Virus record (IMG/VR): IMGVR_UViG_3300033145_000449
Span: 1 to 30,337 of that record
Source: a virus
Reading direction: 5' to 3' (one strand)
Length of the DNA: 30,337 bases
Part shown: piece after piece, positions 1 through 30,156 of the stretch
How the letters are laid out: every line of letters starts with the position of its first letter
How positions within the stretch are numbered: the stretch's first letter is position 1
The notes under the pieces: generated by a model
Databases searched by the model: none
Seen by the model: the letters and a program-made list of their open reading frames with translations, nothing else
What the model was told of the DNA's origin: nothing
Made by a program: the position numbers and the translations under genes

Positions 1-217
1 CAAATGCTTTTTCTAATTCTCTTTGATTTGTTTCGGCATAATCATCTCTTTTTTGTTCCTCGGCAGTTTCTTGTTTTAATTCTTCTCGTTTTTTTTCTTG
101 CTCTGCCATTTTTTCTATTTTATGGAATTGTTCTTGTAAAGAATCTAAACTGTGGGCGGAAATCTTACCCAATAGTTCTCCCCCCTCTTCTGTTTTTAAT
201 GTTGTTTCTAAATACAT
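1..217 (-). CDS. Charged coiled-coil protein, C-terminal part cut by window edge
   Basis: An open frame runs leftward from ATG at 217 to the window edge without a stop, giving 72 visible residues beginning MYLETTLKTEEGGELLGK. After a short start it becomes very rich in Glu, Lys and Gln (for example QEQFHKIEKMAEQEKKREE), which fits a long helix or coiled coil. I do not recognise a family. The start is supported by a promoter whose -10 box ends 6 bases before the ATG, so the message may be leaderless. The C-terminus lies outside the window. The opposite-strand frame over the same bases is Leu/Phe-rich and looks like its shadow. Confidence 0.7.
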   Translation of the reverse strand, partial: MYLETTLKTEEGGELLGKISAHSLDSLQEQFHKIEKMAEQEKKREELKQETAEEQKRDDYAETNQRELEKAF

Positions 218-223
218 ATTTAT

Positions 224-251
224 AGTTTATCAGATAGAATCTAATTGTCAA
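224..251 (-). promoter_or_regulatory. Sigma70-like promoter, leftward
   Basis: On the minus strand TTGACA (246-251), a 16-bp spacer ending TGA, and TAAACT (224-229) form a -35 and extended -10 pair. The predicted transcript start is about 217, exactly at the ATG of the edge gene. The promoter at 1921-1948 has the same boxes, the same spacer length and the same TCCGCCCACATT block upstream. Confidence 0.7.
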
Positions 252-280
252 GTTATAATGTGGGCGGAACATAGATTAGT

Positions 281-652
281 TTACTTGTCAATACAATCTC
301 CTTCCGAATCAAAAGTTATCAATTTTTCCCACTCACATATCTCAGATGATGTCCTCATTATTGTTTCAGCAAACTCATCTATGCTCTCAAAGGAAGAAGG
401 ATAATGATAATCCCAAATTATAGTGTTGCCCAATTTCTTGGAGTAATATTCTGCTTGCAACCAATAATCATCTCCACTCCAACTGCCACGAACTTCTAAA
501 CAAAAATTAATATTTTCATTTTCTTCAAGAATATTAGCTAACTTAGAGATGTCTTCCCTGTCTGTTAAATCTAAACACAAATCTCTCACTTCTTTTTCTA
601 TTTTTGGGATAATTGGTTTGTAACCCTCTTTATTTTTTGTTTTCATAATCAT
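281..652 (-). CDS. Hypothetical acidic protein
   Basis: A 123-residue frame. I do not recognise the family. The N-terminal third is basic (MKTKNKEGYKP), the rest acidic and aromatic, with a WSGDDYWLQAEYYSKK segment in the middle that suggests a folded alpha/beta domain rather than a linker. No signal peptide, membrane segment or Cys pair is seen. Two in-frame ATGs lie at 652 and 646. The second gives MKTKNK, the same opening as several neighbours (MKTKKC, MKTKIG, MKIKTI), so it may be the real start. It is the last gene of the leftward unit whose promoter is at 1921-1948 and follows the HTH gene by 25 bp. Confidence 0.65.
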   Translation of the reverse strand: MIMKTKNKEGYKPIIPKIEKEVRDLCLDLTDREDISKLANILEENENINFCLEVRGSWSGDDYWLQAEYYSKKLGNTIIWDYHYPSSFESIDEFAETIMRTSSEICEWEKLITFDSEGDCIDK

Positions 653-677
653 AATAAATATAATTTATAATTAACTT

Positions 678-995
678 TTAAGATTGCTTAAGATTTCTTA
701 TTCTATCTTCTTCTACATATTCCTTATAGGTTTTGGCTTGTGGTTCACCCAATTTATTTATTTTGTGATTGAATTTCAAAGACATATCAGGTTCATAAAT
801 TGTTCTATCTTTTGATAACACTTTTTCTCCTTGTCGGGGCAAACTTCTAACATCTTTTATATGATAACTAACTAATTGTGTGCTAATAGAAAATATCTTT
901 GATAATTCTCCAACAGTGAATCTCCTCAAATATAATCTTTTAATCTCATTTTTCTGGGCAGAGTTTAATTTACCGCATCCTATTATCTCTTGCAT
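678..995 (-). CDS. Small helix-turn-helix DNA-binding protein
   Basis: A 105-residue frame. Residues about 9-48 fit a helix-turn-helix: LNSAQKNEIKRLYLRR, then FTVGELSKIFSISTQLVSYH, with the usual small residue at the turn and polar recognition helix. The C-terminal half is charged and ends AKTYKEYVEEDRIRNLKQS. It lies 15 bp downstream of the sliding-clamp gene and 25 bp upstream of the next gene, so all three are probably one transcript. A role in early gene control or in replication initiation is possible; the target is not known. The HTH call rests on pattern only. Confidence 0.6.
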   Translation of the reverse strand: MQEIIGCGKLNSAQKNEIKRLYLRRFTVGELSKIFSISTQLVSYHIKDVRSLPRQGEKVLSKDRTIYEPDMSLKFNHKINKLGEPQAKTYKEYVEEDRIRNLKQS

Positions 996-1010
996 AATAA
1001 AATGAATTAT

Positions 1011-1601
1011 CTATTTAATGCAAGGCATCACCAATGCCACTACATTTTGTCCGTTAAAATCGGCTTTTGCCACAATTGGTTTGCTCTCATCTCTAATTTC
1101 TAAATCAATATAATTTCTTCCGTTCTTAATCCAAAAATCCAAAACTTTTTTAAGATATTTAACATTCACCCTCACTGTTACTTTTGGTTCTGTCTTTGGA
1201 ATAATCTGGTCTGTCTCGGGATATTTACCGTCCACAACTTTTGTCTTGACAGAATTTGCTATTTCTAAATCAGTTGTAATAAATTCTGCATCATTTTCAC
1301 TTGCTCTCACAAAGGCAACATTTTCAATTATTGGCAATTTTGAATTCTTTGGAATATTACTTACCATCTTTTTTACAGCATTGGCTGGGATAATAATATC
1401 TTTTGTCATCTCTTCAAACTTAACATCTGGTATAGAAGGATAATCCACTCTATCAACTTTGGGAGTTTCCACTTCTATTAAAACAAAACTATCTGTTGCT
1501 ATGGTTTTATTTTTTGTAAATAGAACCGAAGACAATTCTGGTCTTACAGAATCTTTACTACAAAAATCTGTAATTGATAGATTTAATTTATTATATAACA
1601 T
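1011..1601 (-). CDS. dnaN-like: Short DnaN-like DNA polymerase sliding clamp
   Basis: A 196-residue protein that would encircle DNA and hold a polymerase. Three DnaN signatures appear in order: an ATDSF segment (residues 36-40) like the VATDGHRL region; VVDGKYPETDQIIPK (about 122-136) like VDGRFPDYRRVLPK; then VNVKYLKKVLDF (about 145-156) like NVSYVLDVLNAL, with the chain ending VALVMPCIK like YVVMPMRL. Bacterial clamps are about 370 residues in three domains. This one matches domain 2 plus the second half of domain 3, so it holds only about two domains' worth. A two-domain clamp would have to form a trimer, as T4 gp45 does; that is inference. The ATG at 1601 follows the displaced tail copy of the upstream gene by 6 bp. 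Confidence 0.75.
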   Translation of the reverse strand: MLYNKLNLSITDFCSKDSVRPELSSVLFTKNKTIATDSFVLIEVETPKVDRVDYPSIPDVKFEEMTKDIIIPANAVKKMVSNIPKNSKLPIIENVAFVRASENDAEFITTDLEIANSVKTKVVDGKYPETDQIIPKTEPKVTVRVNVKYLKKVLDFWIKNGRNYIDLEIRDESKPIVAKADFNGQNVVALVMPCIK

Positions 1602-1607
1602 ATATTT

Positions 1608-1663
1608 TTATCTTAACTCACTAATAAAATCCTTTTATTTTATTTCAACTCTGAAATAAAATC
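1608..1663 (-). repeat. Duplicated gene tail with hairpin (tail echo)
   Basis: On the minus strand the last eight codons of the 1640-1873 gene (1663 to 1640) read D-F-I-S-E-L-K-stop. Thirty-two bases on, at 1631-1608, a second stretch reads D-F-I-S-E-L-R-stop. The copies differ at TCA/AGT (Ser), TTG/TTA (Leu) and AAA/AGA (Lys/Arg). Between them AATAAAAT is the inverted complement of the ATTTTATT present in both copies, so a hairpin can form with either. The second stop lies 6 bp before the clamp ATG, the normal gene spacing in this genome. Confidence 0.8.
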
Positions 1664-1873
1664 CTCTAATTCATCTTTATCTTCATCTTCTAAACTATCG
1701 TAAAACTCTTGCCCCTCATCTTCCAAACAAATCCAACTATCTTCATCACTGCACGAGTTAGATTCAGAGAACCAAGTTTTAGATATTTCTAATTCTGTTC
1801 CATCTACATCTAACACAAAGTATTTGGTTATGGAACGATTTGTTGTATCTACACTTATTGTTTTTATTTTCAT
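1640..1873 (-). CDS. Hypothetical small acidic protein
   Basis: A 77-residue frame with a lysine-rich start (MKIKTISVDTTNR) and a strongly acidic C-terminal half full of Asp and Glu (LEDEGQEFYDSLEDEDK). Acidic proteins of this size are often DNA mimics or inhibitors, but nothing here shows that. The promoter at 1921-1948 gives a leader of about 41 bases, and the gene heads the leftward unit that includes the sliding clamp and the HTH gene. Its last codons are repeated after the stop (see 1608-1663). No family recognised. Confidence 0.7.
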   Translation of the reverse strand: MKIKTISVDTTNRSITKYFVLDVDGTELEISKTWFSESNSCSDEDSWICLEDEGQEFYDSLEDEDKDELEDFISELK

Positions 1874-1920
1874 AATAAGTTAATCTGTTAAAATAATAAT
1901 ATACATACGACTATGTTTAT

Positions 1921-1948
1921 AGTTTATCAAAGGATATATTTATGTCAA
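1921..1948 (-). promoter_or_regulatory. Sigma70-like promoter, leftward, before the clamp operon
   Basis: On the minus strand TTGACA (1943-1948), 16 bp ending TGA, and TAAACT (1921-1926). Boxes, spacer and extended -10 match those at 224-251. The predicted start is near 1914, 41 bases before the ATG at 1873. A DnaA-box-like GTGGATAA (1 mismatch) and the 13-bp motif at 2001-2013 lie just upstream. Confidence 0.75.
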
Positions 1949-2000
1949 GAGTGGATAACTCTATAATACAATGTGGGCGGATTGTCAAGTATGTGTAGTT

Positions 2001-2013
2001 TTGGATTATCCAA
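2001..2013. promoter_or_regulatory. 13-bp quasi-palindrome TTGGATTATCCAA
   Basis: A quasi-palindrome of two 6-bp arms (TTGGAT and ATCCAA) around one central base. Identical copies lie at 5548-5560, 14304-14316 and 30116-30128, and an 11-bp copy at 3333-3343. This copy is about 50 bp upstream of the promoter at 1921-1948, as an operator or activator site would be. Confidence 0.55.
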
Positions 2014-2041
2014 AAGAAAAAACTTTCTTCCTATTTAGGAA

Positions 2042-2080
2042 TAAAGAAAAACCACCACACCCTTTCGGTTAAGTGATGGT
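2042..2080 (-). terminator. Rho-independent terminator, leftward
   Basis: On the minus strand ACCATCAC pairs with GTGGTGGT (one G-U pair), with an inner ACC-GAAAG-GGT stem, and is followed at once by a T run. It ends the transcript carrying the 2149-2448 gene and separates it from the clamp operon promoter. Confidence 0.8.
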
Positions 2081-2148
2081 CTAACTTCGGGACGAGTTTA
2101 AATCTCCGCCCCAACGAAACTATCAAAGTGTATTATACATAAAGTGAA

Positions 2149-2448
2149 TTAAGATGCAAGCAAGTTCTCCATCGCGGATTCATACTGAAAGTAATCCTCC
2201 TGAATCTTTTGTTTGTATTCATCAGAGAGAATGATTTTGTTTTTATCCTCATAAAATAAACTGCCACATTTAGGGCAAAACTTCCACTCAGAATAATAAT
2301 AACTTTTCTTAATAAGTTTGATAGGCAATAGAAAGGAATCATTATTATGACCTTTGTATTTTCTTAATTCCAAAAGACCACCACAATTGCTACAAGGTAT
2401 ATTGGTTGGTATAATGTTTATATATTTTTGTGTTTTAGTTTTATTCAT
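2149..2448 (-). CDS. Small protein with two Cys pairs (zinc-ribbon-like)
   Basis: A 99-residue frame. Cys19-x2-Cys22 (PCSNCGG) and Cys58-x2-Cys61 (FCPKCGS) are the two knuckles of a zinc ribbon, about 35 residues apart. The N-terminus is basic (MNKTKTQKY) and the C-terminus is helical and acidic. The family is not recognised; zinc-ribbon proteins of this size in phages often bind DNA, RNA or host RNA polymerase, which is only a suggestion here. It is alone in its unit, with tandem promoters about 500 bp upstream and a terminator 70 bp downstream. Confidence 0.7.
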   Translation of the reverse strand: MNKTKTQKYINIIPTNIPCSNCGGLLELRKYKGHNNDSFLLPIKLIKKSYYYSEWKFCPKCGSLFYEDKNKIILSDEYKQKIQEDYFQYESAMENLLAS

Positions 2449-2449
2449 A

Positions 2450-2826
2450 AATATATATTTTAGTTTAAGTATCTTTTGTTTAACTTTGTAATACTTTTAG
2501 TTATTCCCTTTAGATTACTGTTTCTATCCTCTCTATAATTATAGATTCCCCTGCTATCATTAATAAGATATACAGTGGTGAGGTATTCAATTGTCTGATA
2601 TATAATAAGTTAAGTTTAATTCTTCCGTTTATACCAATTTAATGGTGGCTTCGGGTTGCATTCCTTATATTCTCTGTGCCGTTGCTTTGCTCAAGCCCTT
2701 GTTATATTATATTTTCTGTTCTTTATATTCCCTTTGAGTTACGACCATTTGAGCTGGACGCCCTCTTCTAAGTTATTTTTGAGTAGCACTTAGATAAATC
2801 CTCACTACTATTATTGTGTATAAAAC
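2450..2826 (-). other. Gene-poor leader with possible decayed coding pieces
   Basis: No start-to-stop gene is convincing here. On the minus strand a 49-codon open stretch without ATG (2609-2460, containing TTVYLINDSRGIYNYRED) ends 11 bp before the 2448 ATG. In the same frame upstream, after in-frame stops, lies a 24-codon piece at about 2690-2616 (ending PPLNWYKRKN). These could be remnants of a broken gene, a gene with an unusual start, or chance. The stretch is also the long leader of the 2149-2448 gene if the promoters at 2929-2996 are used. Confidence 0.3.
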
Positions 2827-2900
2827 AAAAAGGCACTCGGCAAAATTGCATGAGTGCTGAGTGCTTTTTTGTTCACTATTATCTCTCATGCACAATAATA
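2809..2900 (+). ncRNA. Candidate structured RNA or terminator with pseudoknot potential
   Basis: Three nested or crossing helices can be read. An outer stem pairs TATTATTGTG (2809-2818) with CACAATAATA (2891-2900). A 15-bp stem pairs 2827-2841 with 2856-2870 (core GCACTCGGC with GCTGAGTGC) and is followed by T6. TGCATGAG (2847-2854), in its loop, pairs with CTCATGCA (2885-2892) beyond it, an H-type pseudoknot. The two wobble positions of the main stem are G-U on the plus strand but A-C mismatches on the minus strand, so a plus-strand RNA is favoured. No good plus promoter was found, while two leftward promoters sit just to the right. At minimum it is a hairpin terminator. Confidence 0.45.
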
Positions 2901-2928
2901 ATGAAACTTATTTAGTTTTACTAAAACT

Positions 2929-2957
2929 ATCCTATCATATAACGATATAAAAGTCAA
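2929..2957 (-). promoter_or_regulatory. Sigma70-like promoter, leftward (proximal of two)
   Basis: On the minus strand TTGACT (2952-2957), a 17-bp spacer ending TGA, and TAGGAT (2929-2934). It points into the structured element at 2809-2900 and the leader of the 2149-2448 gene. Confidence 0.65.
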
Positions 2958-2967
2958 GTATTTTTAT

Positions 2968-2996
2968 AGTATAACACAGTTCTTATTATTTGTCAA
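2968..2996 (-). promoter_or_regulatory. Sigma70-like promoter, leftward (distal of two)
   Basis: On the minus strand TTGACA (2991-2996), a 17-bp spacer ending TGT, and TATACT (2968-2973). This is close to consensus with an extended -10. It stands in tandem with the promoter at 2929-2957, 39 bp apart. Confidence 0.75.
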
Positions 2997-3401
2997 GTGC
3001 TAAGCCTAAAATAAAAAGGCGTAAAATACATTCCGCCCCCATTCTCCATTATTTAATATATTTGCGTTGTTCAGTAATTTGCTAATCCGCACCCCGTCTA
3101 ACTCTGAAAATCAGCATTTCTTTTCTCTCATTTTTCAATCAATTACACCACCATTTTTGCCCCCCTGTCAAGTATAGAAAAAAGTCTATTTTTCCCTAAT
3201 TTTTGAGCCCCAAAACTGCCCCAGAATGAAAGAAAATCTCAGGGTGGTGTATTGTATCCTTTTCCCTTTTTTTTCGCCTTAAATCGCAAATTTCAAAAAA
3301 CGACCTCTAAAATATCCTTATTTATAGCCCTCGGATAATCCAAAAAAACGCCCTTTTGTTTTTCCTCCCTCCCTAAAATAGATAGATTCAAAGTTATTCT
3401 A
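2997..3401. other. Intergenic stretch without a recognisable gene
   Basis: No frame with a credible start and protein-like content is seen on either strand. It holds runs of C on the plus strand (CCCCC at several places), a 9-bp inverted repeat TACACCACC / GGTGGTGTA about 90 bp apart (near 3144 and 3243), and the partial 13-bp motif at 3333-3343. The leftward promoter at 3402-3430 would transcribe it. Confidence 0.5.
3333..3343. promoter_or_regulatory. Partial copy (11 bp) of the TTGGATTATCCAA motif
   Basis: The minus strand reads TTGGATTATCC followed by G, so 11 of the 13 bases match. It lies about 60 bp downstream of the promoter at 3402-3430. Confidence 0.4.
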
Positions 3402-3430
3402 ATGATAGCATATTATTGACAAAAAGTCAA
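3402..3430 (-). promoter_or_regulatory. Sigma70-like promoter, leftward, without an evident gene
   Basis: On the minus strand TTGACT (3425-3430), 17 bp ending TGC, and TATCAT (3402-3407). It starts just past the terminator at 3445-3483 and points into about 400 bp with no gene found. Confidence 0.65.
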
Positions 3431-3444
3431 GTAAATGGGACAAT

Positions 3445-3483
3445 AAAAAAACCACAAAATAATAAATAGTATATATTTTGTGG
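3445..3483 (-). terminator. Rho-independent terminator, leftward
   Basis: On the minus strand CCACAAAATA and TATTTTGTGG form a perfect 10-bp stem with a 12-base loop, followed by six or more T. It ends the transcript of the 3518-3763 and 3754-4119 genes. Confidence 0.9.
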
Positions 3484-3517
3484 CTTTATGCGTTTTTGGG
3501 AGCGTCTGGCACCCCGT

Positions 3518-3763
3518 TTATTGCTTTTTGCCTCTTCTTTGTTTTTTATTCCAATCATCCCAGGGAATCCTTAAAATATCCGTTGTGTATCTATCATAAT
3601 CAATCCGTAATCTGTAAAGTCCATTGATAAGTTTAGTGTTGATTGATACCCAGGCAATTGTCTGTTTTTTCTCGTCTGTGATTTTTATTGCGATTTTTTC
3701 ATTTCCGCCTTGCCCTTTGCTCGCCCTTTCGCTTTCTACTTTTGCGTACAGTTTCATAGCCAT
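3518..3763 (-). CDS. Hypothetical small basic protein
   Basis: An 81-residue frame starting MAMKLYAKVESERASKGQGG and ending in a basic tail (WNKKQRRGKKQ). The middle alternates hydrophobic and polar residues (IAIKITDEKKQTIAWVSI, YRLRIDYDR), which suggests a small beta fold. The basic tail would suit nucleic-acid binding. Its start overlaps the end of the upstream gene by 10 bp, so translation is probably coupled. MKLYAK, two codons in, could also be the start. A strong terminator follows 35 bp after the stop. No family recognised. Confidence 0.65.
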   Translation of the reverse strand: MAMKLYAKVESERASKGQGGNEKIAIKITDEKKQTIAWVSINTKLINGLYRLRIDYDRYTTDILRIPWDDWNKKQRRGKKQ

Positions 3764-4119
3764 TCATCAATCATGTAATAATCAGCGACTAAATCTAATT
3801 CGGCTTGTGATAACTCAACCTCTTCATAGCATCCCCAATCTTCCCAGTAATAAACGCCCCCAGTAATACCAGAACCATCAGCAGTAAACTTAAAACCATC
3901 ACCATCGCCCCCCGTTGATAATTGAATCTTGATAACTTTCTCAATGCTAATGCCTAACGGCTCCCGATAATTCTCACTTTCATTATCGCTTTCAATCTTT
4001 CCACTCTCCATTTCCGCCCCTACCTTCTTAATATCCTTCATCTCGTCATTTTTACGATATAAAGCATATGCTCGCAAACTTTCAGGCGTTGCGTGTCCTT
4101 TAATGTTCGGATTTTCCAT
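3754..4119 (-). CDS. Hypothetical acidic protein
   Basis: A 121-residue frame. The N-terminal third (MENPNIKGHATPESLRAYAL) and the next segment are charged and probably flexible. Residues about 60-121 look folded: a Gly-rich stretch (STGGDGDGFKFTADGSGITGG), then YYWEDWGCYEEVELSQAELDLVADYYMIDEWL, which is acidic, aromatic and probably helical. No family recognised. It is first in a two-gene unit and overlaps the next gene. An inverted repeat and a weak promoter lie directly upstream. Confidence 0.65.
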   Translation of the reverse strand: MENPNIKGHATPESLRAYALYRKNDEMKDIKKVGAEMESGKIESDNESENYREPLGISIEKVIKIQLSTGGDGDGFKFTADGSGITGGVYYWEDWGCYEEVELSQAELDLVADYYMIDEWL

Positions 4120-4126
4120 ATAAATT

Positions 4127-4171
4127 GAAACAAATCTTATTTTTTCAATTTGTTTCTTATTAAATTGTCAA
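4127..4171 (-). promoter_or_regulatory. Weak promoter with overlapping inverted repeat
   Basis: On the minus strand a perfect TTGACA (4166-4171) has only a poor -10 17 bp on (TTGAAA, 4143-4148). A perfect 9-bp inverted repeat, GAAACAAAT (4127-4135) and ATTTGTTTC (4148-4156), covers the -10 area and the space up to the ATG at 4119. This fits a repressor site on a weak promoter, or a hairpin that hides the start. The 4172-4287 remainder of this gap shows only a hairpin (CCCTGATT / AATCGGGG on the minus strand). Confidence 0.4.
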
Positions 4172-4287
4172 ATAACTAATAAATTAAATGGAGTCAAAAC
4201 GACATTTTGCCCCCTTTTGGCGTGCTTACTATTCTAACACCCTCTTTATTGCCCCCGATTCAATAAATCAGGGACAAAAACAAAATG

Positions 4288-4611
4288 CTAAACTTCTTTG
4301 TTCCTGTTCATTTCTGCCCCCTCATTTTCTGGCAAAAAATCCCCCTCATTTACTCTGTCCAGTGCTTCTTGTTCGTTTTCTGCTTTGATTGTTACACTGT
4401 GCCTTTCGTCCCAAGTAACCACAAATGTTTTTTTATTCATAATTGTATTAAGATAGTTTTTATATTCTTCAATAATTCTCAGTCTGTCCTGCTGGTGTTC
4501 CTTGTCAATATCATAGCCACCATCAGCCTTTAACTGCTTTATCGTTTTTTGCAACTCTTTTACCTGTGTTTTAACTGGTAATTCTTGTAATTTTTCTAAA
4601 TATGTTTTCAT
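4288..4611 (-). CDS. Hypothetical two-part protein
   Basis: A 107-residue frame. Residues 1-57 form a charged, helical segment with heptad-like leucines (MKTYLEKLQELPVKTQVKEL, KQLKADGGYDIDKEHQQDRL). From about residue 58 a small alpha/beta unit follows, MNKKTFVVTWDERHSVTIKAEN then EQEALDRVNEGDF, a pattern I associate with small phage proteins of unknown role. Because this second part has its own MNKK start (ATG near 4440), an internal start giving about 50 residues is possible. It starts 3 bp after the 4615-4812 gene. Confidence 0.65.
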   Translation of the reverse strand: MKTYLEKLQELPVKTQVKELQKTIKQLKADGGYDIDKEHQQDRLRIIEEYKNYLNTIMNKKTFVVTWDERHSVTIKAENEQEALDRVNEGDFLPENEGAEMNRNKEV

Positions 4612-4614
4612 AAT

Positions 4615-4812
4615 CTATGTTATTGCTATTTTATAAAGTGTCCTGATTCCGTTTTTGTCTTGTATTTCAATCATTATTTTATCATAATCCAGTGAGATAT
4701 TTTTTCCTTCAATAATCTTGTCAAGGACTCTCCCCCCGTCATCTTTCCATTTTGTCTGATTGATAATTTCATAGAGTGCTTCGATTAACTTTTGTTTTCT
4801 TGTTTTGTTCAT
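4615..4812 (-). CDS. Hypothetical small protein
   Basis: A 65-residue frame, MNKTRKQKLIEALYEIINQT to the end. A basic start, an amphipathic helix, then a short charged beta-like stretch (YDKIMIEIQDKNGIRTLYKIAIT). No family recognised. It lies 2 bp downstream of the membrane microprotein gene and 3 bp upstream of the next gene, so it is an internal member of the tight leftward operon 5400-4288. Confidence 0.65.
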   Translation of the reverse strand: MNKTRKQKLIEALYEIINQTKWKDDGGRVLDKIIEGKNISLDYDKIMIEIQDKNGIRTLYKIAIT

Positions 4813-4814
4813 AA

Positions 4815-4982
4815 TTAAATTAAACTACTAACTAATAAAATAACCGACCGATAATGATTCGACAACATATCAGTCCCGCCCCCGCCTAACGCATAATGGA
4901 CAAGGCAAAACACCAACCCTGCTAACCATATAACAAACAATAAACTTAACACCTCAACTACTGCACCTATTTTTGTTTTCAT
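4815..4982 (-). CDS. Small single-span membrane protein, 55 residues
   Basis: A short frame read directly from the minus strand: ATG at 4982, stop at 4815-4817, 55 residues. It opens MKTKIGAVVEVL like its neighbours' MKTK starts, then has one hydrophobic segment (about residues 9-31: VEVLSLLFVIWLAGLVFCLV) followed by a Gly-rich turn (GGGGTD) and a second weakly hydrophobic stretch at the C-terminus. The stop lies 2 bp before the next ATG. A membrane role (holin-like, superinfection exclusion) is possible but not shown. Confidence 0.6.
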   Translation of the reverse strand: MKTKIGAVVEVLSLLFVIWLAGLVFCLVHYALGGGGTDMLSNHYRSVILLVSSLI

Positions 4983-5000
4983 AACTTTTAATAAATTAAA

Positions 5001-5019
5001 GGACGGGACAACCCCGCCC
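5001..5019 (-). terminator. Hairpin, possible weak leftward terminator
   Basis: On the minus strand GGGCGGG and CCCGTCC pair over 7 bp with one G-U pair and a 5-base loop, followed by CTTTAATTT. It sits between the Cys-rich 5030-5212 gene and the membrane protein gene and may only attenuate. Confidence 0.4.
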
Positions 5020-5029
5020 CTGTTAATAA

Positions 5030-5212
5030 TTACAACCTCATCATCACGTCTTCCAAACCTGATAACCGCGGTTCCTCGTTTTGCAATTCATCCTGTAAAC
5101 AATTGTCTTCGTAGTCTTTTTGAGCACAATCGCAACAGCAGAATCTATCGTCACCGCTCCACCCGCCATCTGTTATCTCTTTATCGCAAAACAAACATTT
5201 TTTTGTTTTCAT
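5030..5212 (-). CDS. Cys-rich putative zinc-finger microprotein
   Basis: A 60-residue frame. Cys6-x2-Cys9 (KCLFCDKE) is followed by a Cys cluster at 25-29 (FCCCDCAQKDYEDN), the spacing of a treble-clef or zinc-ribbon finger. The C-terminal half is acidic and ends LSGLEDVMMRL. Small zinc proteins of this form in phages are mostly uncharacterised. It lies 26 bp downstream of the 5239-5400 gene and probably shares the promoter at 5449-5476. Confidence 0.65.
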   Translation of the reverse strand: MKTKKCLFCDKEITDGGWSGDDRFCCCDCAQKDYEDNCLQDELQNEEPRLSGLEDVMMRL

Positions 5213-5238
5213 TGTTTTATTCTTTTTAATTTATAAAC

Positions 5239-5400
5239 TTATATATTTAACATTTTCACAATTTCCCTTTTTCTAAAACTGAATGCTTTGCCATCCGCTT
5301 CAACCGTGTAACTCCCATCTTGTATTTTTGTGATAATTCCATTAAGTTTAGAAAAATAATAATTGACTTTCACTTTATCACCGATGTTTATTTTTTTCAT
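5239..5400 (-). CDS. Small SH3/KOW-like protein, 53 residues
   Basis: A short frame read from the minus strand, ATG at 5400 to stop at 5239-5241. It reads MKKINIGDKVKVNYYFSK, then GIITKIQDGSYTVEADGKAF, then a basic SFRKREIVKMLNI end. The run GDKVKV, then G-I-I-T-x-I, then YTVE, then a charged strand, is typical of small SH3-like barrels (KOW or Tudor type) that often bind nucleic acid. It is the first gene of its leftward operon, with a predicted leader of about 42 bases from the promoter at 5449-5476. Confidence 0.6.
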   Translation of the reverse strand: MKKINIGDKVKVNYYFSKLNGIITKIQDGSYTVEADGKAFSFRKREIVKMLNI

Positions 5401-5443
5401 AACTTTTTTATAAACTACTTAATTATTAAATGACCTTTATTGC

Positions 5444-5476
5444 TTGCAATTATATCAGCGCCAGAGTATAATGCAA
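5444..5476. promoter_or_regulatory. Dyad-symmetric two-way promoter
   Basis: The near-perfect inverted repeat GCTTGCA-ATTATA / TATAAT-GCAAGC carries promoter boxes on both strands. Leftward: TTGCAT (5471-5476), 16 bp ending TGA, TATAAT (5449-5454). Rightward: TTGCAA (5444-5449), 17 bp, TATAAT (5467-5472). The two promoters occupy the same DNA and should exclude each other. The leftward one serves the operon starting at 5400. Confidence 0.6.
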
Positions 5477-5478
5477 GC

Positions 5479-5502
5479 GTTTACGGTGTAAACTGTGGAT
5501 AA
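5479..5502. promoter_or_regulatory. Palindrome GTTTAC-GGT-GTAAAC next to a DnaA-box-like 9-mer
   Basis: A perfect 6-bp palindrome (5479-5493) abuts TGTGGATAA (5494-5502), the complement of the DnaA box TTATCCACA. The half-site GTGTAAAC recurs in the 17-bp array at 30157-30337. Its position in the divergent region suggests an operator or part of a replication origin. Confidence 0.45.
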
Positions 5503-5547
5503 GTTTCAGACACAACATAAAATAACAAATCTGTCAAATACAACTCT

Positions 5548-5560
5548 TTGGATTATCCAA
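5548..5560. promoter_or_regulatory. 13-bp motif TTGGATTATCCAA, second copy
   Basis: Identical to the motif at 2001-2013. It contains the stop codon of the 5553-5711 gene on the minus strand and lies about 55 bp from the DnaA-box-like 9-mer. Confidence 0.5.
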
Positions 5561-5711
5561 ATAACCAAGCGGAGGCGATAAATCCTGTTAAATCTCCATT
5601 TTTCGCCCCAGAACGTAAATCTGCCCACAAACCAAATATCCAACACAATACACCTATACAGAATATAAACCCGTTACAACTCAATTTCAAGCCACAAATA
5701 TCAATAAACAT
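5553..5711 (-). CDS. Small membrane protein, 52 residues
   Basis: A short minus-strand frame, ATG at 5711, stop at 5553-5555. It reads MFIDICGLKLSCNGFIFCIG, then VLCWIFGLWADLRS, a polar GAKNGDLT loop and GFIASAWLFG, so two hydrophobic segments (about 13-30 and 41-52) flank a charged loop. No promoter of the usual type was found directly upstream; a 26-residue hydrophobic frame with a TTG start (5813-5733) precedes it and may be coupled. Coding status rests on composition alone. Confidence 0.4.
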   Translation of the reverse strand: MFIDICGLKLSCNGFIFCIGVLCWIFGLWADLRSGAKNGDLTGFIASAWLFG

Positions 5712-5978
5712 TGAAAAATAACACCATATCAATCAAAATCCCGCCCACCGACTATAAAAACCTCTATATAAAGCACAAAGTAGAATAACACTTATAAGAC
5801 AAACACCAAACAATACCTATTATAAGAGTAGTGGGTATATACTCATAACCCTATAATGGTATAGAATATACATAAAATAGAGAAATGATTCAATCAACCC
5901 CGTGCTATGTATGTACATCCCTCCCCCTCAACCCTTCCAAAAGGATTCCCCCCAAGTGTTTTCTTTCAATAGCATCAC
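5712..5978. other. Divergent intergenic region, left part
   Basis: No convincing gene. AT-rich with several TATAAT-like boxes (near 5852) lacking good -35 partners, and C-rich runs near 5925-5955. A 26-codon leftward frame with a TTG start at 5813 is the only protein-like piece. Confidence 0.4.
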
Positions 5979-6007
5979 TTGACATTATAATCAATCTATG
6001 GTATTAA
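5979..6007 (+). promoter_or_regulatory. Sigma70-like promoter, rightward, distal late promoter
   Basis: TTGACA (5979-5984), 17 bp ending TGG, and TATTAA (6002-6007). The predicted start is near 6014. The resulting leader carries a run of eight G at about 6040 followed by GGGG, which could fold or pause polymerase. Confidence 0.65.
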
Positions 6008-6144
6008 CACAAATAACTAAATTTGTCAATATCAACAGGGGGGGGCGTATGGGGACCATTTGTCTTATATTAATATATATACCCCCACCAAATTTTATAC
6101 TATTCTACTATAATGTAATACAATATATATAATAAGAATATCCC

Positions 6145-6173
6145 TTGACTTTTAAACTAAAGTATGATAAAGT
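6145..6173 (+). promoter_or_regulatory. Sigma70-like promoter, rightward, proximal late promoter
   Basis: TTGACT (6145-6150), 17 bp ending TGA, and TAAAGT (6168-6173). The predicted start is about 6180, 3 bases before the TTG start of the small terminase gene, so its message would be nearly leaderless. Confidence 0.7.
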
Positions 6174-6182
6174 AGTAATACT

Positions 6183-6749
6183 TTGAAAACTCTATCGATA
6201 GAACAAAAGACTGGTTTATTTATGATGCTTGAAAAGAAAGACCTTTATAAGGTCGGACTTGAGTATGAGTTTGATAAACACTATAAGGATGCTAAAGCCG
6301 TAAAGGGGGCGGTTTATCGTATTTATAGTGATGTTAAGAATCACCCCGATAAATATGGTATTCAACCTATTACTTATAATAAAGTTGTGAATGCTATGTC
6401 TTCTAGGTCTATACAAGGAAAGGCGGTTGACCAAAAGGTTAGTTTGAGAGAAGAGTTAGAAGATTTTGATATAAAGAAGATGGTGTTGTCTAATAGAGAT
6501 AAGGCGGCACTTTTGGTAAGTAGGAAATTAGATAGTATTGGTAAGAGTAAGAAGAAGTTAGATGCTATATCTTTACCTCAATTATCTTTAACTCTTTGTC
6601 AGTTGTTTGATAAAGGACAGATAGTTCAGGGTGAGGCTACTGAACATATAGCACATCTTGCTAAGATTGAAGAAGGATTAAGTGCTAAAGATTTATTAGA
6701 AGCTGTTATTACACAGAGGGAATCTACAATAATTAAGAAGAATAAGTAG
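6183..6749 (+). CDS. terS: Terminase small subunit (probable)
   Basis: A 188-residue protein at the head of the late operon, two genes before the large terminase, where the DNA-recognising small subunit usually lies. Residues 1-60 are helical (IEQKTGLFMMLEKKDLYKVG, then AVKGAVYRIYSDVKNHP) and fit a DNA-binding helix-turn-helix. The middle and end are helical (REELEDFDIKKMVLSNRD, AHLAKIEEGLSAKDLLEAVI), as in oligomerising small terminases. The start used is TTG at 6183, directly behind the -10 box; an in-frame ATG at 6222 is the alternative but would remove part of the helical domain. The tail (KKNK) and stop are repeated twice downstream. Confidence 0.6.
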   Translation: MKTLSIEQKTGLFMMLEKKDLYKVGLEYEFDKHYKDAKAVKGAVYRIYSDVKNHPDKYGIQPITYNKVVNAMSSRSIQGKAVDQKVSLREELEDFDIKKMVLSNRDKAALLVSRKLDSIGKSKKKLDAISLPQLSLTLCQLFDKGQIVQGEATEHIAHLAKIEEGLSAKDLLEAVITQRESTIIKKNK

Positions 6750-6821
6750 ATTCTTCTTAATCCTATTATTAAGAAGAATAAATAGATTCTTCTTAATCCT
6801 ATTATTAAGAAGAATAAATAA
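6732..6821 (+). repeat. 36-bp tandem hairpins repeating the terS tail and stop
   Basis: Period 36 bp, 2.4 copies starting at 6732, 6768 and 6804. Each full unit is a perfect 12-bp stem (ATTAAGAAGAAT / ATTCTTCTTAAT) with a 6-base loop, then CCTATT; the last lacks its right arm. Each left arm and loop spells K-K-N-K-stop, as the gene end does: AAG TAG, AAA TAG, AAA TAA in order. As 36 is a multiple of three, reading through the two TAG codons would stay in frame until TAA. The right arms can pair with the left arm on either side. Confidence 0.9.
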
Positions 6822-6838
6822 AATCGACCAAAAAAGAA

Positions 6839-7171
6839 GTGAAGAAGAATTTTGATGTTTTTAAGAAAGAATGTCTTTATTGGCAAAAGAAGTTAGAGTT
6901 GGGTAATTATGATATAGAAATTAAACTTGGCACGGATAAGGATTTCTTTTCTGCTTGGTGTTCTATATATGCAGATTATAATGCTATTGTTTGGATGGAT
7001 GAAACTTATAAGTTTTCTTCTTTACAAGAAGTAAAAGATGCTGCTAAACATGAAATGGTGCATATACTAGTTGGGAGATTAGTAGATAATGCCCGTGCCC
7101 GATATATAAATAAAAATGAAATAGATGAAGCCTTAGAGGAACTTGTAAGAAAATTAACTAAACTAATATGA
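6839..7171 (+). CDS. Putative zinc metalloprotease-like protein (HExxH)
   Basis: A 110-residue frame with a GTG start. It contains a zincin motif, KHEMVHILVGR (His71-Glu72-x-x-His75), preceded by a strand-rich segment (YDIEIKLGTDKDFFSAWCSI, YNAIVWMDETY) and followed by a helical end with acidic residues (NEIDEALEELV) that could supply a third zinc ligand. This arrangement resembles the SprT/WLM-type small metalloproteases, and similar small HExxH proteins are seen next to phage terminase genes. A role in capsid maturation is possible but unproven. It ends in an ATGA overlap with the large terminase gene. Confidence 0.6.
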   Translation: MKKNFDVFKKECLYWQKKLELGNYDIEIKLGTDKDFFSAWCSIYADYNAIVWMDETYKFSSLQEVKDAAKHEMVHILVGRLVDNARARYINKNEIDEALEELVRKLTKLI

Positions 7172-8856
7172 CAACTGAGTTGGATAAAGAAAATACAGCA
7201 TTAGCTGTTGAAGAATCAAGACTTACTGTCTTAAAGAAGAAAGAAATGCTCCGTAGAGAGAGAGTCTTTAAGGAGTATTTGGAATCTGACGTCTATCGGG
7301 ATAAGATAGAGATTAGAGCCAAGATATTTGATGCTTGTCAGGATAATAGGAGAGAGTTCATTCTTTCAAGAGGAAGGGTGTATCAATTATGTTCGGGGCA
7401 AGGTATTCAGAATCCCACTAATAATGATTTGGCGGAAGCATGTATCTTTTTTATAGAGAACTTTGGTTGGACTTTCTCACCCAAGACTGACCCTAAACAT
7501 TTACCTTTTATTCTATTTGATTTTCAGAAGAAGATGATTAAATGGTTAATTGATAAGATAGAGAAAGGAGAGGATGGTTTCTTGGAAAAGTCAAGGGAAA
7601 TGGGTGCCTCATGGATTGTATTTGTGTATGTATCTTTGTGGTATTGGTTATTCAGAGATGGGGCGAATATTCTATTAGGTTCTTATAAGGAAATGTTGGT
7701 AGATGATAAAACTTCAGACAGTTTATTTGGTAAGATAGATTATGCTTTAGAAGCAATGCCTAAATGGTTGATGCCCAGAAAGTTTAATCCAAATAAGCAT
7801 AGAACTAAATTAAGGTTAATGAACCCAGAAAATGGTAATTTAATATCAGGAGATACAATGAACCAAAACTTTGGTAGGGGTTCTCGTAAGACTGCTATTA
7901 TGTTTGATGAGTTAGGATTTTGGGACTATGCGAAAGATGCTTGGGAGGGTGCGGCAGATTCAACTAACTGTCGGATAGCCAACAGTACGCCATGCGGGTA
8001 TAATTTCTATGCTATGTTAAGAGAGTCTGGAATTGACATCCATACAATGCATTGGCAAGACCACCCTTTCAAAGATAATGAATGGTATGAGTATGAGAAG
8101 GAAAGAAGAACAGAAGAGTCTTTGGCTCAAGAGGTGGATATATCCTATTTGAAATCTCTCGAGGGTAGGGTATATCCTGATTGGAATGAAGAGTTTGTTG
8201 AACAGGGTAAATTTGAATATGATTATAATCTACCATTATATGTTGGGTGGGACTTTGGTTTTGATGATGATACTGCTATAATTTGGGCACAACCTAATAA
8301 AGGTAAATTAAGAATTATAGATACTTATAGAAATAATTATAAATTGATAGATTTCTATATTCCTTTTGTTACAGGTATTACTCCATCAGATGCTATTAAG
8401 TATAGTTCTAAAGATTTAGCGAAGATTGCTTCACATAAAACTTGGAAGAAAGGTGTTCATTTCGGCGACCCAGCAGGGAGATTTGGTAATCAAGTAGTAA
8501 ATACAACAGTAGTAGAAGAGTTAAGAAATAGCGGTATAGAGATAAACTTCAAAGATGCTTGGAAACACTTTGATAGAAGAAAGACTGCTTTAAGATTGCT
8601 TATAAGAAATGGTATAGAATTAAATATGAACTCTGATACCAAATACTTTAATCTATGTATGATTAACTCTGCCTATCCGAAAGTTAAACAACATGGAGTA
8701 GATGAGGTTAGGTCAATTAAACCACTACATAATTGGTCTTCGCATTATAGGTCGGCAGCTGAATACATGTCCCTTGGTTTATCAGAACTCCGCCCCACCA
8801 AAAGAACTATTAAAGATAAGATTAAACCACGGGGTAGGGGAAGTGTAAGATATTAA
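7168..8856 (+). CDS. terL: Terminase large subunit
   Basis: A 562-residue packaging ATPase and nuclease. Residues about 141-149 (KSREMGASW) are the Walker A-like motif of this family, AIMFDE (243-248) the Walker B with the catalytic Glu, and NSTP (272-275) the coupling motif. The nuclease domain begins at YVGWDFGFDDDTA, with an acidic residue at 362, and continues with HFGDPAG (Asp434) and further acidic positions. The length is usual for the family. It starts in an ATGA overlap with the previous gene. It acts at the portal to cut and pump DNA into the prohead. Confidence 0.93.
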   Translation: MTTELDKENTALAVEESRLTVLKKKEMLRRERVFKEYLESDVYRDKIEIRAKIFDACQDNRREFILSRGRVYQLCSGQGIQNPTNNDLAEACIFFIENFGWTFSPKTDPKHLPFILFDFQKKMIKWLIDKIEKGEDGFLEKSREMGASWIVFVYVSLWYWLFRDGANILLGSYKEMLVDDKTSDSLFGKIDYALEAMPKWLMPRKFNPNKHRTKLRLMNPENGNLISGDTMNQNFGRGSRKTAIMFDELGFWDYAKDAWEGAADSTNCRIANSTPCGYNFYAMLRESGIDIHTMHWQDHPFKDNEWYEYEKERRTEESLAQEVDISYLKSLEGRVYPDWNEEFVEQGKFEYDYNLPLYVGWDFGFDDDTAIIWAQPNKGKLRIIDTYRNNYKLIDFYIPFVTGITPSDAIKYSSKDLAKIASHKTWKKGVHFGDPAGRFGNQVVNTTVVEELRNSGIEINFKDAWKHFDRRKTALRLLIRNGIELNMNSDTKYFNLCMINSAYPKVKQHGVDEVRSIKPLHNWSSHYRSAAEYMSLGLSELRPTKRTIKDKIKPRGRGSVRY

Positions 8857-8859
8857 AAT

Positions 8860-9249
8860 ATGATATTTAGAGATGCATACTCAAACGAGGGGAGTCTATG
8901 GTTTAGAAGACTTCTAAAAGATTGTAAAAAAATAAGTTCACATATAAGAGTGAAACGTATTAAGAATGGATTTTTTAGAATTTATTATAAACAAGCATAT
9001 ATACATGAGATTTATAAAGAAGCACCAATGATAGGATATACTATGGATAGTCTTGACCCTAGATTTGAATCTAAAAAGTTTTGGGAAAGTAAAGAAGACC
9101 GTGCCGATTTAACCCGACAAGTAAAGAATTATATAGAGGGATATTGGGATTCACTGGATAGGATAAGAACTCGTATGTATATGTTTAGAAATAATTATGA
9201 GTTTTATAAAACAGCAGTAGATGGATATAAGACGCTTGTTATAAAATAA
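8860..9249 (+). CDS. Hypothetical protein between terminase and portal
   Basis: A 129-residue frame, 3 bp after the large terminase stop. It is basic and rich in Tyr, Arg and Lys (KDCKKISSHIRVKRIKNGFF, YKQAYIHEIYKEAPM) in the first half, and probably helical at the end (KEDRADLTRQVKNYIEGYWD, MYMFRNNYEFYKTA). No family recognised. Position and charge would fit a DNA-contacting packaging accessory, but nothing in the sequence proves it. The portal promoter starts 4 bp after its stop. Confidence 0.7.
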   Translation: MIFRDAYSNEGSLWFRRLLKDCKKISSHIRVKRIKNGFFRIYYKQAYIHEIYKEAPMIGYTMDSLDPRFESKKFWESKEDRADLTRQVKNYIEGYWDSLDRIRTRMYMFRNNYEFYKTAVDGYKTLVIK

Positions 9250-9252
9250 CAC

Positions 9253-9281
9253 TTGACAAATTAAATCATATATGATATGAT
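9253..9281 (+). promoter_or_regulatory. Strong sigma70-like promoter before the portal gene
   Basis: TTGACA (9253-9258), 17 bp ending TGA, and TATGAT (9276-9281), near consensus with an extended -10. The predicted start is about 9288, leaving roughly six bases before the portal ATG at 9294 and no room for a Shine-Dalgarno sequence. Confidence 0.85.
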
Positions 9282-9293
9282 TAAAACAAATTT

Positions 9294-11327
9294 ATGTCTA
9301 AAGTTAAAAAAGTTTTGAAGGAGTTTGTGCCAAAGGAATTGGAATATGATTATGAACCCACCGATGTAGAAAGGGTGGTTATTAATGATGTATTTGCTCG
9401 CTTCACAAATGCGGAGAGTGTGAGAAATGCATCTTATCAATATCTTGATGGTAGAAATATAATTACATATATAAATGATTCCGTTAGAAGATTTACCACT
9501 AACATAGATGAACGGGATTATATTGAAGATTGGCAGGCAAGAGTGCATGTCCAAACAACAAGGAGTAAAACACTTGCTATTTTAGGTAAGTTGGTTTCTG
9601 TGCTCCCTATTGCAGAGTTTAAAGGAAGAGGTGAGGAAGATGTTAGAAAAGGGGTGCTTATTACAAATTTATATGAATACGCCGAAGAAGTAGATGATTA
9701 TGAAGAGTTTATGACCTTTATGCTTTTGGAGGCTATTGTTAAAGGCACAGCTATTGGTTATGAGGGTTCTGAAGTTAAGACACGGAAAATAAGAAATGTC
9801 AAGGGTGTTAATGATGATATTACTATCCAAGAAGTAAAAGAGAAGAAAACAACACTTCCTGGTAAGATTATTCCTTTGGAAGATTTTTACCCTTCCTCAG
9901 TTGGAGTGAGAAAAATTAAAGATATGCCTTTCTGTTTTTGGAGAAGTGAAATATCTTATGAAGAATTTATACAGAACTGGTCAATGTATAAACGACATAC
10001 ATTAGTCTGCCCGCATTCTTCACAATTTAATTCAGAAGAGAAACAACCTTTTTATAGAGATTATATAAGTAATCTTACTAATGATGGTAATGTTGAGATA
10101 TTGAGATATTATGATAGAGAGAATGACCAATATGTAATAATGGCAAATGGTATTTGGTTGAATCCATTAAAAGATAAGGAAGGAGAATTTATAGTTAGTC
10201 CTTTACCTTTTAATCATAAAGAACTTCCTTTCTGGGATATTAAGTTTGATTTCTTTGGGGCAGATTTCTTTTATGGGAAATCTTTACCAGACAGACTTAA
10301 ATCAATGCAAGATGTGTTGAATGTTCTTACTAATATGTCATTAGACCAATCTTTCCTAACCATATTCCCACCAATTCTTACGGCAGGATTTGATGATATT
10401 GAAGATGACTATTTGCGACCAGGGAGAAGGATACCAGTAGATACAGGTGTATTACCTTTGAATCAATCCTTTATGAAGTTAGACCCTGGCACACCGTCAG
10501 GCTGGCACCAATTTATATTAAACTATACAAGAGATTTGATGGAAGAGGCATCTGTTGATAAAGTTCAACAAGGTATGGCTGGTGGCGGAGATAGAACTAC
10601 TGCAAGAGAGATAGGTGTTGCCGCAGAAGGAGTAAGTGCTGTGTTAGGTTTATTTGGGAGAATGGTAAATTCAGGTCTTAAAAGAAAAGCATATCTTAAG
10701 GGAGCAAATATACTTCAATTCTGGACAGACCCTAATAATCCAATGATAGTTAAACTTGGGGGCACAACTGGTAAGGAAGACTTAAAGAAAGCATTTAATA
10801 CTATCCAAATAGATAATACAGTTCTTACAGATGGACAGAGAGGATTAAAGATAATTGAGTTTTACAAAGACAAGAAATCTATCCCAAACAAAACAGAAAT
10901 TAAAGTTCGTTCTAAACTTGCTAAATTAGAAAGAAATAAAGAAGTAGAGATATTTGCTGTCCCACCAGAGTATCTACGAGATTATTTGTATGATATTACA
11001 ATGGTTATGAATCCAAAGAGTGCGGGTTCAAAAGATTTGGATAAAGCTATGCAACTTGAAAAGGTAAGAGTATATTTAAGTTTCTTCCCTGAATTAGTTG
11101 ATAAAGTAGAGTTGGCAGCACAGACAGCAGAGAAAATGGGAGATGACCCAACCAAGATATTAAAACCAGATGTATTAAATCCTCAACCTATGGAAGAAAA
11201 TAACGAATTAGATAGTGGAATAAGCCAACAGCCAACAGAGAATGTGGCTAATAATATGATAAGGAGTGCTCGTGGGGGTGAGGGTGCGGCACAAATGGCA
11301 CAAATTCAAGGTGCGATGCAAGGATAG
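9294..11327 (+). CDS. Portal protein
   Basis: A 677-residue protein directly after the terminase block, the standard place of the portal ring through which DNA enters and leaves the head. The length matches the large P22-type portals. Features include an acidic N-terminus, a strand-rich wing region (about 90-330), the MQDVLNVLTNMSLDQSFL helix followed by FPPILTAG, an ASVDKVQQGM segment and a GGGDRTTAREIGVAAEG helix typical of portal clips and stems, and a Gln/Asn-rich C-terminus (NELDSGISQQPTENVANNM) like the barrel or tail of podovirus portals. Identity rests on order, length and these segments. Confidence 0.85.
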   Translation: MSKVKKVLKEFVPKELEYDYEPTDVERVVINDVFARFTNAESVRNASYQYLDGRNIITYINDSVRRFTTNIDERDYIEDWQARVHVQTTRSKTLAILGKLVSVLPIAEFKGRGEEDVRKGVLITNLYEYAEEVDDYEEFMTFMLLEAIVKGTAIGYEGSEVKTRKIRNVKGVNDDITIQEVKEKKTTLPGKIIPLEDFYPSSVGVRKIKDMPFCFWRSEISYEEFIQNWSMYKRHTLVCPHSSQFNSEEKQPFYRDYISNLTNDGNVEILRYYDRENDQYVIMANGIWLNPLKDKEGEFIVSPLPFNHKELPFWDIKFDFFGADFFYGKSLPDRLKSMQDVLNVLTNMSLDQSFLTIFPPILTAGFDDIEDDYLRPGRRIPVDTGVLPLNQSFMKLDPGTPSGWHQFILNYTRDLMEEASVDKVQQGMAGGGDRTTAREIGVAAEGVSAVLGLFGRMVNSGLKRKAYLKGANILQFWTDPNNPMIVKLGGTTGKEDLKKAFNTIQIDNTVLTDGQRGLKIIEFYKDKKSIPNKTEIKVRSKLAKLERNKEVEIFAVPPEYLRDYLYDITMVMNPKSAGSKDLDKAMQLEKVRVYLSFFPELVDKVELAAQTAEKMGDDPTKILKPDVLNPQPMEENNELDSGISQQPTENVANNMIRSARGGEGAAQMAQIQGAMQG

Positions 11328-11333
11328 AAATAT

Positions 11334-11648
11334 ATGATATTAAAAAAAATACCAACAGAAGAATTAGAACAAGAACTATTAGAGAGAATAGGAGATTTTG
11401 ATAATCATATCATTGACCCCAAAGCAGAACAGTTGGTCTTAAAAGAATTAAGAAAAGTTGAAGGATTGAGTAATTATTTACAAGGTTTACTTGTCAAAGA
11501 AGTTATTAGAGGATTTGTTGTTGATACAGATAAACAAAGGTGGCACGCAAAAGGGGCACATAATACAATATTTAGATTACAACAAAAATTAAGAAAGCCT
11601 AAAAAGAAAGCAAGCAAAACTAAAATGGAGAATAAAAGATATGCATAA
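11334..11648 (+). CDS. Hypothetical basic protein after the portal
   Basis: A 104-residue frame, 6 bp after the portal stop. It is helical throughout, starting ILKKIPTEELEQELLERIGD and with a strongly basic end (RLQQKLRKPKKKASKTKMEN). The segment YLQGLLVKEVIRGFVVDTDKQ looks like a helix packed against a charged surface. No family recognised; the place between portal and scaffold suggests a head-assembly accessory. Its final 11 bases including the stop are repeated exactly 25 bp downstream. Confidence 0.65.
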   Translation: MILKKIPTEELEQELLERIGDFDNHIIDPKAEQLVLKELRKVEGLSNYLQGLLVKEVIRGFVVDTDKQRWHAKGAHNTIFRLQQKLRKPKKKASKTKMENKRYA

Positions 11649-11673
11649 TTTTTGATTATGCTGATATGCATAA
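11638..11673 (+). repeat. Duplicated gene tail with hairpin (exact copy)
   Basis: GATATGCATAA, the last 11 bases of the 11334-11648 gene including TAA, recurs at 11663-11673. Between the copies TTATGC is the inverted complement of GCATAA. This is the same tail, inverted tail, tail order as at 1608, 6732, 20173 and 20424, but the copy is identical, and it ends 1 bp before the -35 box of the next promoter. Confidence 0.7.
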
Positions 11674-11674
11674 C

Positions 11675-11703
11675 TTGACATTTTGATAGAGATATGATAT
11701 ACT
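11675..11703 (+). promoter_or_regulatory. Strong sigma70-like promoter before the scaffold-capsid genes
   Basis: TTGACA (11675-11680), 17 bp ending TGA, and TATACT (11698-11703), close to consensus with an extended -10. The predicted start is near 11710, giving a leader of about 213 bases, unlike the very short leaders of the other late promoters. Confidence 0.85.
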
Positions 11704-11709
11704 AACAAA

Positions 11710-11922
11710 AGGTGCTAACGTTGATATATACACGAGTTGTGTGTGTAGGGAGTATCGGTCGATATACTCCTTACACAGACCATTTGTGGAGATAAGTTAT
11801 CTTAACATTGGTTACATAAGTTTGCAAACTTAGGTGGACTCAACCACCAAAAAACTACGTGGGCTCAACCACGATATAAAAAGGGAAGTTTTTATTAAAA
11901 AGGGAAGTAATCATAAACTATT
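11710..11922 (+). ncRNA. Highly structured leader RNA before the scaffold gene
   Basis: About 213 non-coding bases with five local hairpins. A 13-bp stem (11743-11755 with 11764-11776, one G-U pair). GATAA-G-TTATC (11791-11801). A perfect 16-bp palindrome TAAGTTTGCAAACTTA (11817-11832). Two sister hairpins: GGTGG-ACTCAA-CCACC (11833-11848) and CGTGG-GCTCAA-CCACG (11858-11873), where the outer pair is swapped G-C to C-G while the CTCAA loop is kept. Then AAAAAGGGAAGT occurs twice (11878-11889 and 11897-11908). No T run follows any stem, so these are not simple terminators. The role is unknown: translational control, message stability or a packaging-type RNA are possible. Confidence 0.6.
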
Positions 11923-19907: not shown

Positions 19908-19912
19908 TATCT

Positions 19913-28747: not shown

Positions 28748-28750
28748 TCT

Positions 28751-28796: not shown

Positions 28797-28802
28797 AAAA
28801 TA

Positions 28803-30155: not shown

Positions 30156-30156
30156 G

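Follow-up and report, generated by a model that had tools for sequence, protein, structure and literature searches.

Genes whose ends have been replaced, with the old end left behind, are known from fungal mitochondria, where mobile endonuclease open reading frames (ORFs) have given rise to C-terminal gene hybrids in Allomyces (atp6) and in Glomus (atp6, atp9, cox2, and nad3) (PMC3630166). A bacterial-virus parallel may be found in an uncultured tailed phage, the source of the 30,337-base window considered here (IMG/VR virus record IMGVR_UViG_3300033145_000449; the window is the whole stretch analyzed, 66% AT). In it, the last codons and stop of a gene encoding an acidic protein of 77 amino acids occur a second time directly downstream of the gene (site C; 1608-1671, minus strand), and the same anatomy recurs at several other gene ends of the phage (sites A, B, and D, and more weakly E and F). 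This phage seems to have rebuilt its gene ends repeatedly while leaving its proteins unchanged. As in the fungal hybrids, several genes of one genome are affected and the tails differ largely by synonymous changes; what looks like a replacement tail may likewise stand ahead of a native tail left downstream, as comparison with relatives suggests at sites A and E. Unlike the fungal cases, the phage inserts are short (25-72 nucleotides (nt)), contain no endonuclease gene, are associated with hairpins, carry a stop in each copy, and are repeated in tandem.

Other known systems share some of these properties. Template-switch mutations produce local reverse-complement copies that form perfect stems, with compensatory changes, as seen in the phage, but in the phage a further direct copy of the tail comes after the inverted one, and stop codons are where such events are found again and again (PMC8794818). 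The T4 gene 60 bypass cassette with mobA offers another short, stop-containing, hairpin-bearing insert with matched flanks, in a phage that likewise has HNH endonucleases; that insert, however, interrupts its gene and must be bypassed, whereas the phage gene is complete before the insert begins (PMC5009743). In the coding palindromes of Nematomorpha mitochondria, protein sequence and perfect inverted repeats are maintained together, as they are here, but no tail is duplicated after the stop (PMC6649704). Finally, minisatellite-type repeats have head-to-tail units in variable copy number, though their units do not, as in the phage, encode anew the C-terminus and stop of the host gene.

The elements of site C are as follows:

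1640-1873, minus strand: gene for the 77-amino-acid acidic protein, whose tail is copied; the databases searched yielded no relative
1640-1671, minus strand: first unit, the translated tail ...E-D-F-I-S-E-L-K-stop
1608-1639, minus strand: second unit, ...K-D-F-I-S-E-L-R-stop, in a different frame from the first unit
1637-1662, minus strand: perfect 11-base-pair (bp) hairpin ATTTTATTTCA-GAGT-TGAAATAAAAT (arms 1652-1662 and 1637-1647, loop GAGT)

The gene (1873-1640) ends in GAT TTT ATT TCA GAG TTG AAA TAA, with its stop at 1640-1642, and then come AATAAAAG, GAT TTT ATT AGT GAG TTA AGA TAA, AAATAT, and the ATG (at 1601) of a gene encoding a sliding-clamp-like protein. An initial annotation, made from the letters alone, had pointed to the repetition of the tail after its own stop, to the codon changes between the copies (TCA/AGT, TTG/TTA, and AAA/AGA), and to the 6 nt between the second stop (1608-1610) and the next start, all of which can be read directly. 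It had also placed a hairpin arm between the copies, but the 11-bp hairpin lies almost wholly inside the first copy, the D-F-I-S codons making up its 5' arm and L-K-stop its 3' arm. Through a second pairing, of 8 bp (1637-1644 with 1623-1630), the spacer is also connected with the second copy. Seen as a whole, the site consists of two head-to-tail units of 32 nt that are identical at 24 of 32 positions (25 of 32 in a register shifted by two bases). The second copy, at an offset of 32, is in another frame than the first and is preceded in its own frame by a stop two codons ahead of its GAT, so it cannot be reached by read-through or by a simple frameshift.

What was noticed at site C is real, and on the minus strand, but the one site noted in the initial annotation is not the only case. 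Arrays identified by Tandem Repeats Finder and a listing of all gene ends in the window yielded these sister sites:

6714-6821, plus strand: site A, at the end of gene 6183-6749; three copies of the tail I-I-K-K-N-K-stop with a period of 36 nt and hairpins of 12 bp
20410-20496, plus strand: site B, at the end of gene 20241-20438; three copies of the tail Q-L-N-K-stop with a period of 29 nt and two hairpins of 9 bp
20154-20239, plus strand: site D, at the end of gene 19852-20196; LLSLIIK-stop followed by LLELIIK-stop, 43-nt period
11624-11673, plus strand: site E (weaker), at the gene end at 11648; GATATGCATAA copied around a GCATAAT/ATTATGC hairpin
28738-28806, plus strand: site F, at the end of gene 25421-28747; 23-nt units with hairpins from the stop onward, the copy of the coding tail not being clear
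30156-30337, minus strand: possible site G (tentative); about 10.6 units of 17 nt, with the end of the contig inside the array

The units range from 17 to 43 nt, each with last codons and a stop, and are associated with palindromes. They are arranged head to tail with a constant period at A, B, F, and G (according to Tandem Repeats Finder), at C (as a direct repeat), and at C and D (by listing of the units). At sites A, B, D, and E, the inserted arm is the reverse complement of the gene's own tail. The last copy at B has CAG TTG in place of CAA CTA, and the hairpins of this site differ from one another by a compensatory pair change. At D, the last stop ends 1 nt ahead of the next ATG. The unit of site G reads TTT ACT/ACA CAG AGA TAA, that is, FTQR-stop with silent ACT/ACA variants, and the array is flush with the ATG of gene 30155-29961; since the gene upstream of the array lies off the contig, the 17-nt array can be matched to the pattern of tail copies only tentatively.

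Some related observations may be recorded here. Sites A and B exhibit an identical series from first unit to last, AAG TAG, AAA TAG, AAA TAA (AATAAGTAG, AATAAATAG, AATAAATAA). A related locus, L022 (4941-5600), has a gene ending in KYRR-stop and, 16 nt further on, QYRR-stop, with AATATCGTCGATAG repeated, possibly an independent tail copy. A start-codon repeat near 19907 was set aside as within chance by a rough estimate. Intrinsic terminators (a GC-rich stem with a U run) were absent from sites A, C, and E in a scan of positions 1-12500, and the stems at B, D, and F are by inspection AT-rich, not of the GC-rich terminator type. The covariance models of Rfam 15 gave 0 matches in the window.

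How readily might such sites arise by chance? A screen of DNA alone, for perfect hairpins accompanied at short distance by a direct repeat of the region of the arms, gave ten hits in the window with scores of at least 14.5, all at the four sites A, B, C, and D. When the window was shuffled 300 times with dinucleotides kept, a single shuffle contained any hit of at least 14.5, and the highest score never passed 16.0, against 16.5 for site C. Relatives amounting to 472 kb had no hit of 14 or more when arms of at least 8 were required. All fetched loci together (about 1 Mb, partly overlapping), screened with arms of at least 7, gave three unrelated sites at or above 14. The best score in T4 (positions 1-50,000) was 10. 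When 510 gene ends (those of the window and of 22 relatives) were ranked instead by copies of the tail peptide, sites C, D, and A took the first three ranks, C with a score of 32, tied for best. Among randomly re-paired gene ends, scores of at least 28 were seen 0.05 times per 510, the sole exceedance (a score of 79) probably coming from near-duplicate contigs. A scan of shuffled gene ends had been proposed beforehand as a test of the initial annotation: four of the 39 gene ends in the window score at least 14, against a permutation mean of 0.13, although one of the four, that of gene 24215-25417 (score 14), has its copy inside the next gene and is probably due to chance.

The similarity between the copies also has a component at the level of the protein, much as the initial annotation had held. 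Between first and last copies at the four loci A-D, 13 codons differ, and nine of the 13 differences are silent; none of 20,000 simulations with equal numbers of nucleotide changes per codon reached 9/13 (P < 5e-5), where the loci had been chosen by their DNA repeats and the extent of the alignment at D by the peptide. The copies differ from each other at 5 of 21 nt in C, 8 of 30 in D, and 4 of 12 in B. Orthologous tails from the window and from the related locus L002 differ at 3-10 of 21 nt (seven correctly aligned ends; a misaligned row, 13156, was excluded), many of the differences being silent, and at the 12612 end even a TCT/AGT serine switch separates them. The divergence between copies is similar in size to that between orthologous tails of sister phages.

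Related phage loci were retrieved with queries from the terminase, capsid, and tail region. L002/L003, whose terminase is 78% identical to that of the window and whose DNA is about 77% identical, and L019 have no insert at A or at E. At site A, the last copy is continued by AAAATCGACCAAAAA, a sequence that comes almost directly 3' of the gene's stop in L019 (the junction is AAGAATAAGTAAATGATACTAAAAATCGACCAAAAA in L019 and AAGAATAAATAAAATCGACCAAAAA in the third copy of the window). At site E, L002 has GATATGCTTGACA where the window has GATATGCATAA-insert-GATATGCATAACTTGACA, and L002/L003 read GATATGC-TTGACA, free of the insert. Because of these empty-site junctions, the last copy at A and E is taken to be the one in native context. 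The suggestion of a native tail in the last copy is supported, then, at these two sister sites, while for site C no relative was found: the genes flanking it had none in IMG/VR, in the phage collection, or in 22 records reached via terminase, and an exact-pattern search for its second tail copy found nothing.

What might have produced these gene ends? The reading we favor, though at no better than about even confidence, is that the tail copies are local duplications, modified by later slippage and by selection on the translated copy. Whether site C belongs with a group of short duplications, arranged head to tail, that this phage lineage alone has at the 3' ends of its genes we hold to be a question of nearly balanced chances, leaning toward it only tentatively. 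According to the model, the replicating strand would slip or switch template at gene ends able to form hairpins, leaving a tail, an arm in reverse complement, and then another tail. Template switches made in the course of replication are known to give rise to such arms (PMC8794818), and we infer such an origin for the copies. A duplication that includes the stop would be tolerated, with the first copy preserving the protein and the last preserving the native spacing to the next start. Ribosomes would translate the first copy, and the last would be the old native tail. Later slippage would alter the number of copies and might delete units, exposing any one of them as the working tail, and this exposure, together with changes in the translated copy that maintain the hairpin, would keep the peptide the same with mostly silent differences. 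The location of the sites would be explained as well, since the protein is unharmed when its stop is part of what is duplicated. Copy numbers differ among sites (2, 3, 3, and about 10.6), which is what slippage would be expected to produce. No sequence is common to inserts from different genes, and because each is similar solely to the end of the gene it follows, they do not represent a transposed sequence; of the initial proposals, a very small mobile element is thus unsupported insofar as it would have a sequence of its own.

Several observations weigh against local duplication. Its main weakness is the silent excess: duplication followed by neutral decay of the last copy does not predict nine silent differences of 13, and the excess would require that the last copy be repeatedly exposed to selection. 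No single template switch could turn the second copy at C into the first, whose hairpin arms both differ from the second copy. At B and E, the resemblance to what precedes in the gene is limited to a portion of each unit, and the confinement of tail copies to this phage is left without explanation. The natural alternative is that a related phage supplied its version of the gene's tail, along with a hairpin, and that this was joined ahead of the native tail by illegitimate or homing-type recombination, copies beyond two arising by later slippage. The divergence between copies, equal to that of orthologous sister-phage tails down to the serine switch, is what one would expect of such an origin, as is the agreement at A between the native junction and the last copy, and the fungal hybrids provide a precedent with mostly synonymous differences. 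The window also carries two free-standing HNH endonuclease genes, of a kind tied to homing in phages. On the other hand, an endonuclease gene is found in none of the inserts, no donor combining a first-copy tail with a hairpin was found in about 1 Mb of relatives, the event would be required independently at several sites, and such joining would not lead one to expect insert arms that, as at A, B, D, and E, reverse-complement the very tail they accompany; a foreign tail is in our estimation unlikely, if worth serious thought. Quite unlikely, we think, is a phage-borne process or tiny noncoding element that inserts repeatedly at stop codons and restores the end of any gene it enters, copying the local tail (as tail, inverted tail, tail) and leaving the protein as it was. 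If it exists, it would be a sequence-independent and protein-neutral element of 3' ends, with the native tail ready for precise loss of the insert.

The copies might be alike for yet another reason, that both must pair with one inverted arm: in such an RNA switch, a ribosome finishing the first copy would shift the hairpin and with it access to the next start. Two alternative pairings exist at C (1637-1647/1652-1662 versus 1623-1630/1637-1644), sites A, B, and F fold better than shuffles (z of -5.5, -3.0, and -3.4), the hairpins of B have their compensatory change, and the last copies at B, C, and D lie 1-6 nt from the next ATG. However, the S-E-L-R codons of the second copy at C match though they lie outside any pairing, D folds no better than shuffles (z of -0.3), no start lies a short way downstream of E or F, and no Rfam family was matched in the window. 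As an account of why the copies are alike, the switch is improbable, although such a role is possible and would be compatible with either a local or a foreign origin. Recoding, as raised in the initial annotation, would have the ribosome bypass from first copy to last in the manner of T4 gene 60. The matched take-off and landing sequence (GGATTTTATT), the stop and hairpin after take-off, and the direct repeats are reminiscent of it, but the protein is already whole where the first copy ends, its tail being that of the second apart from K versus R, which leaves nothing for a bypass to gain; moreover, the offsets (36, 29, 32, 43, and 25) show no frame preference, the inserts occur only at gene ends, and A and B carry their unit three times. 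It is hard to credit recoding at all. Nor do we give much credence to chance or to an artifact of assembly. The window is AT-rich, and direct repeats of similar identity do occur elsewhere in it, though mostly at other gene ends and in one low-complexity region, but the sites are not reproduced by shuffles, by permutations, or by relatives of similar GC content (L019 and L024), and silent codon differences are not the pattern of an artifact. For the set as a whole, chance and artifact are refuted; for site C taken alone, the support is weaker.

If the protein is blind to duplications in which the stop is included, then gene ends are places where hairpins and tandem arrays can arise and evolve freely. 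The phage would, on the reading of local duplication, exhibit gene-end duplication simultaneously in several of its genes, the two copies remaining legible, and would provide a testable case for the origin of intergenic hairpins, of gene-end mosaics, and possibly of bypass cassettes such as that of T4 gene 60.

Other genes of the window include the following:

1011-1601, minus strand: sliding-clamp-like protein (DNA polymerase processivity factor) of 196 amino acids, next after the 77-amino-acid gene; matches phrog_947 (E 3.4e-11) and phrog_3007 (E 2.9e-16)
7168-8856: terminase
9294-11327: portal/connector-like protein
13162-14130: capsid
18728-19216, plus strand: free-standing HNH endonuclease, outside all inserts
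29096-29629, minus strand: free-standing HNH endonuclease, outside all inserts

Pfam gave no match to the sliding-clamp-like gene. A single-protein scan of IMG/VR gave no relatives of the genes at sites D and F, and a scan of bacterial genomes by capsid alignment found no relative. The gene at site B has a distant homologue in L034 (39% identity), with no array visible at that gene end. Just 3' of the site A array is a gene for a small protein with an HExxH-like motif, HEMVH (6839-7171), which does not occupy the equivalent place in L002 or L019. Upstream of gene 11923-12612 is a duplicated leader, AAAAAGGGAAGT-TTTTATT-AAAAAGGGAAGT (11876-11917), and the doubling is conserved in L002 (5466), L003 (6210), and L019 (about 14800); it is probably a doubled ribosome-binding region.
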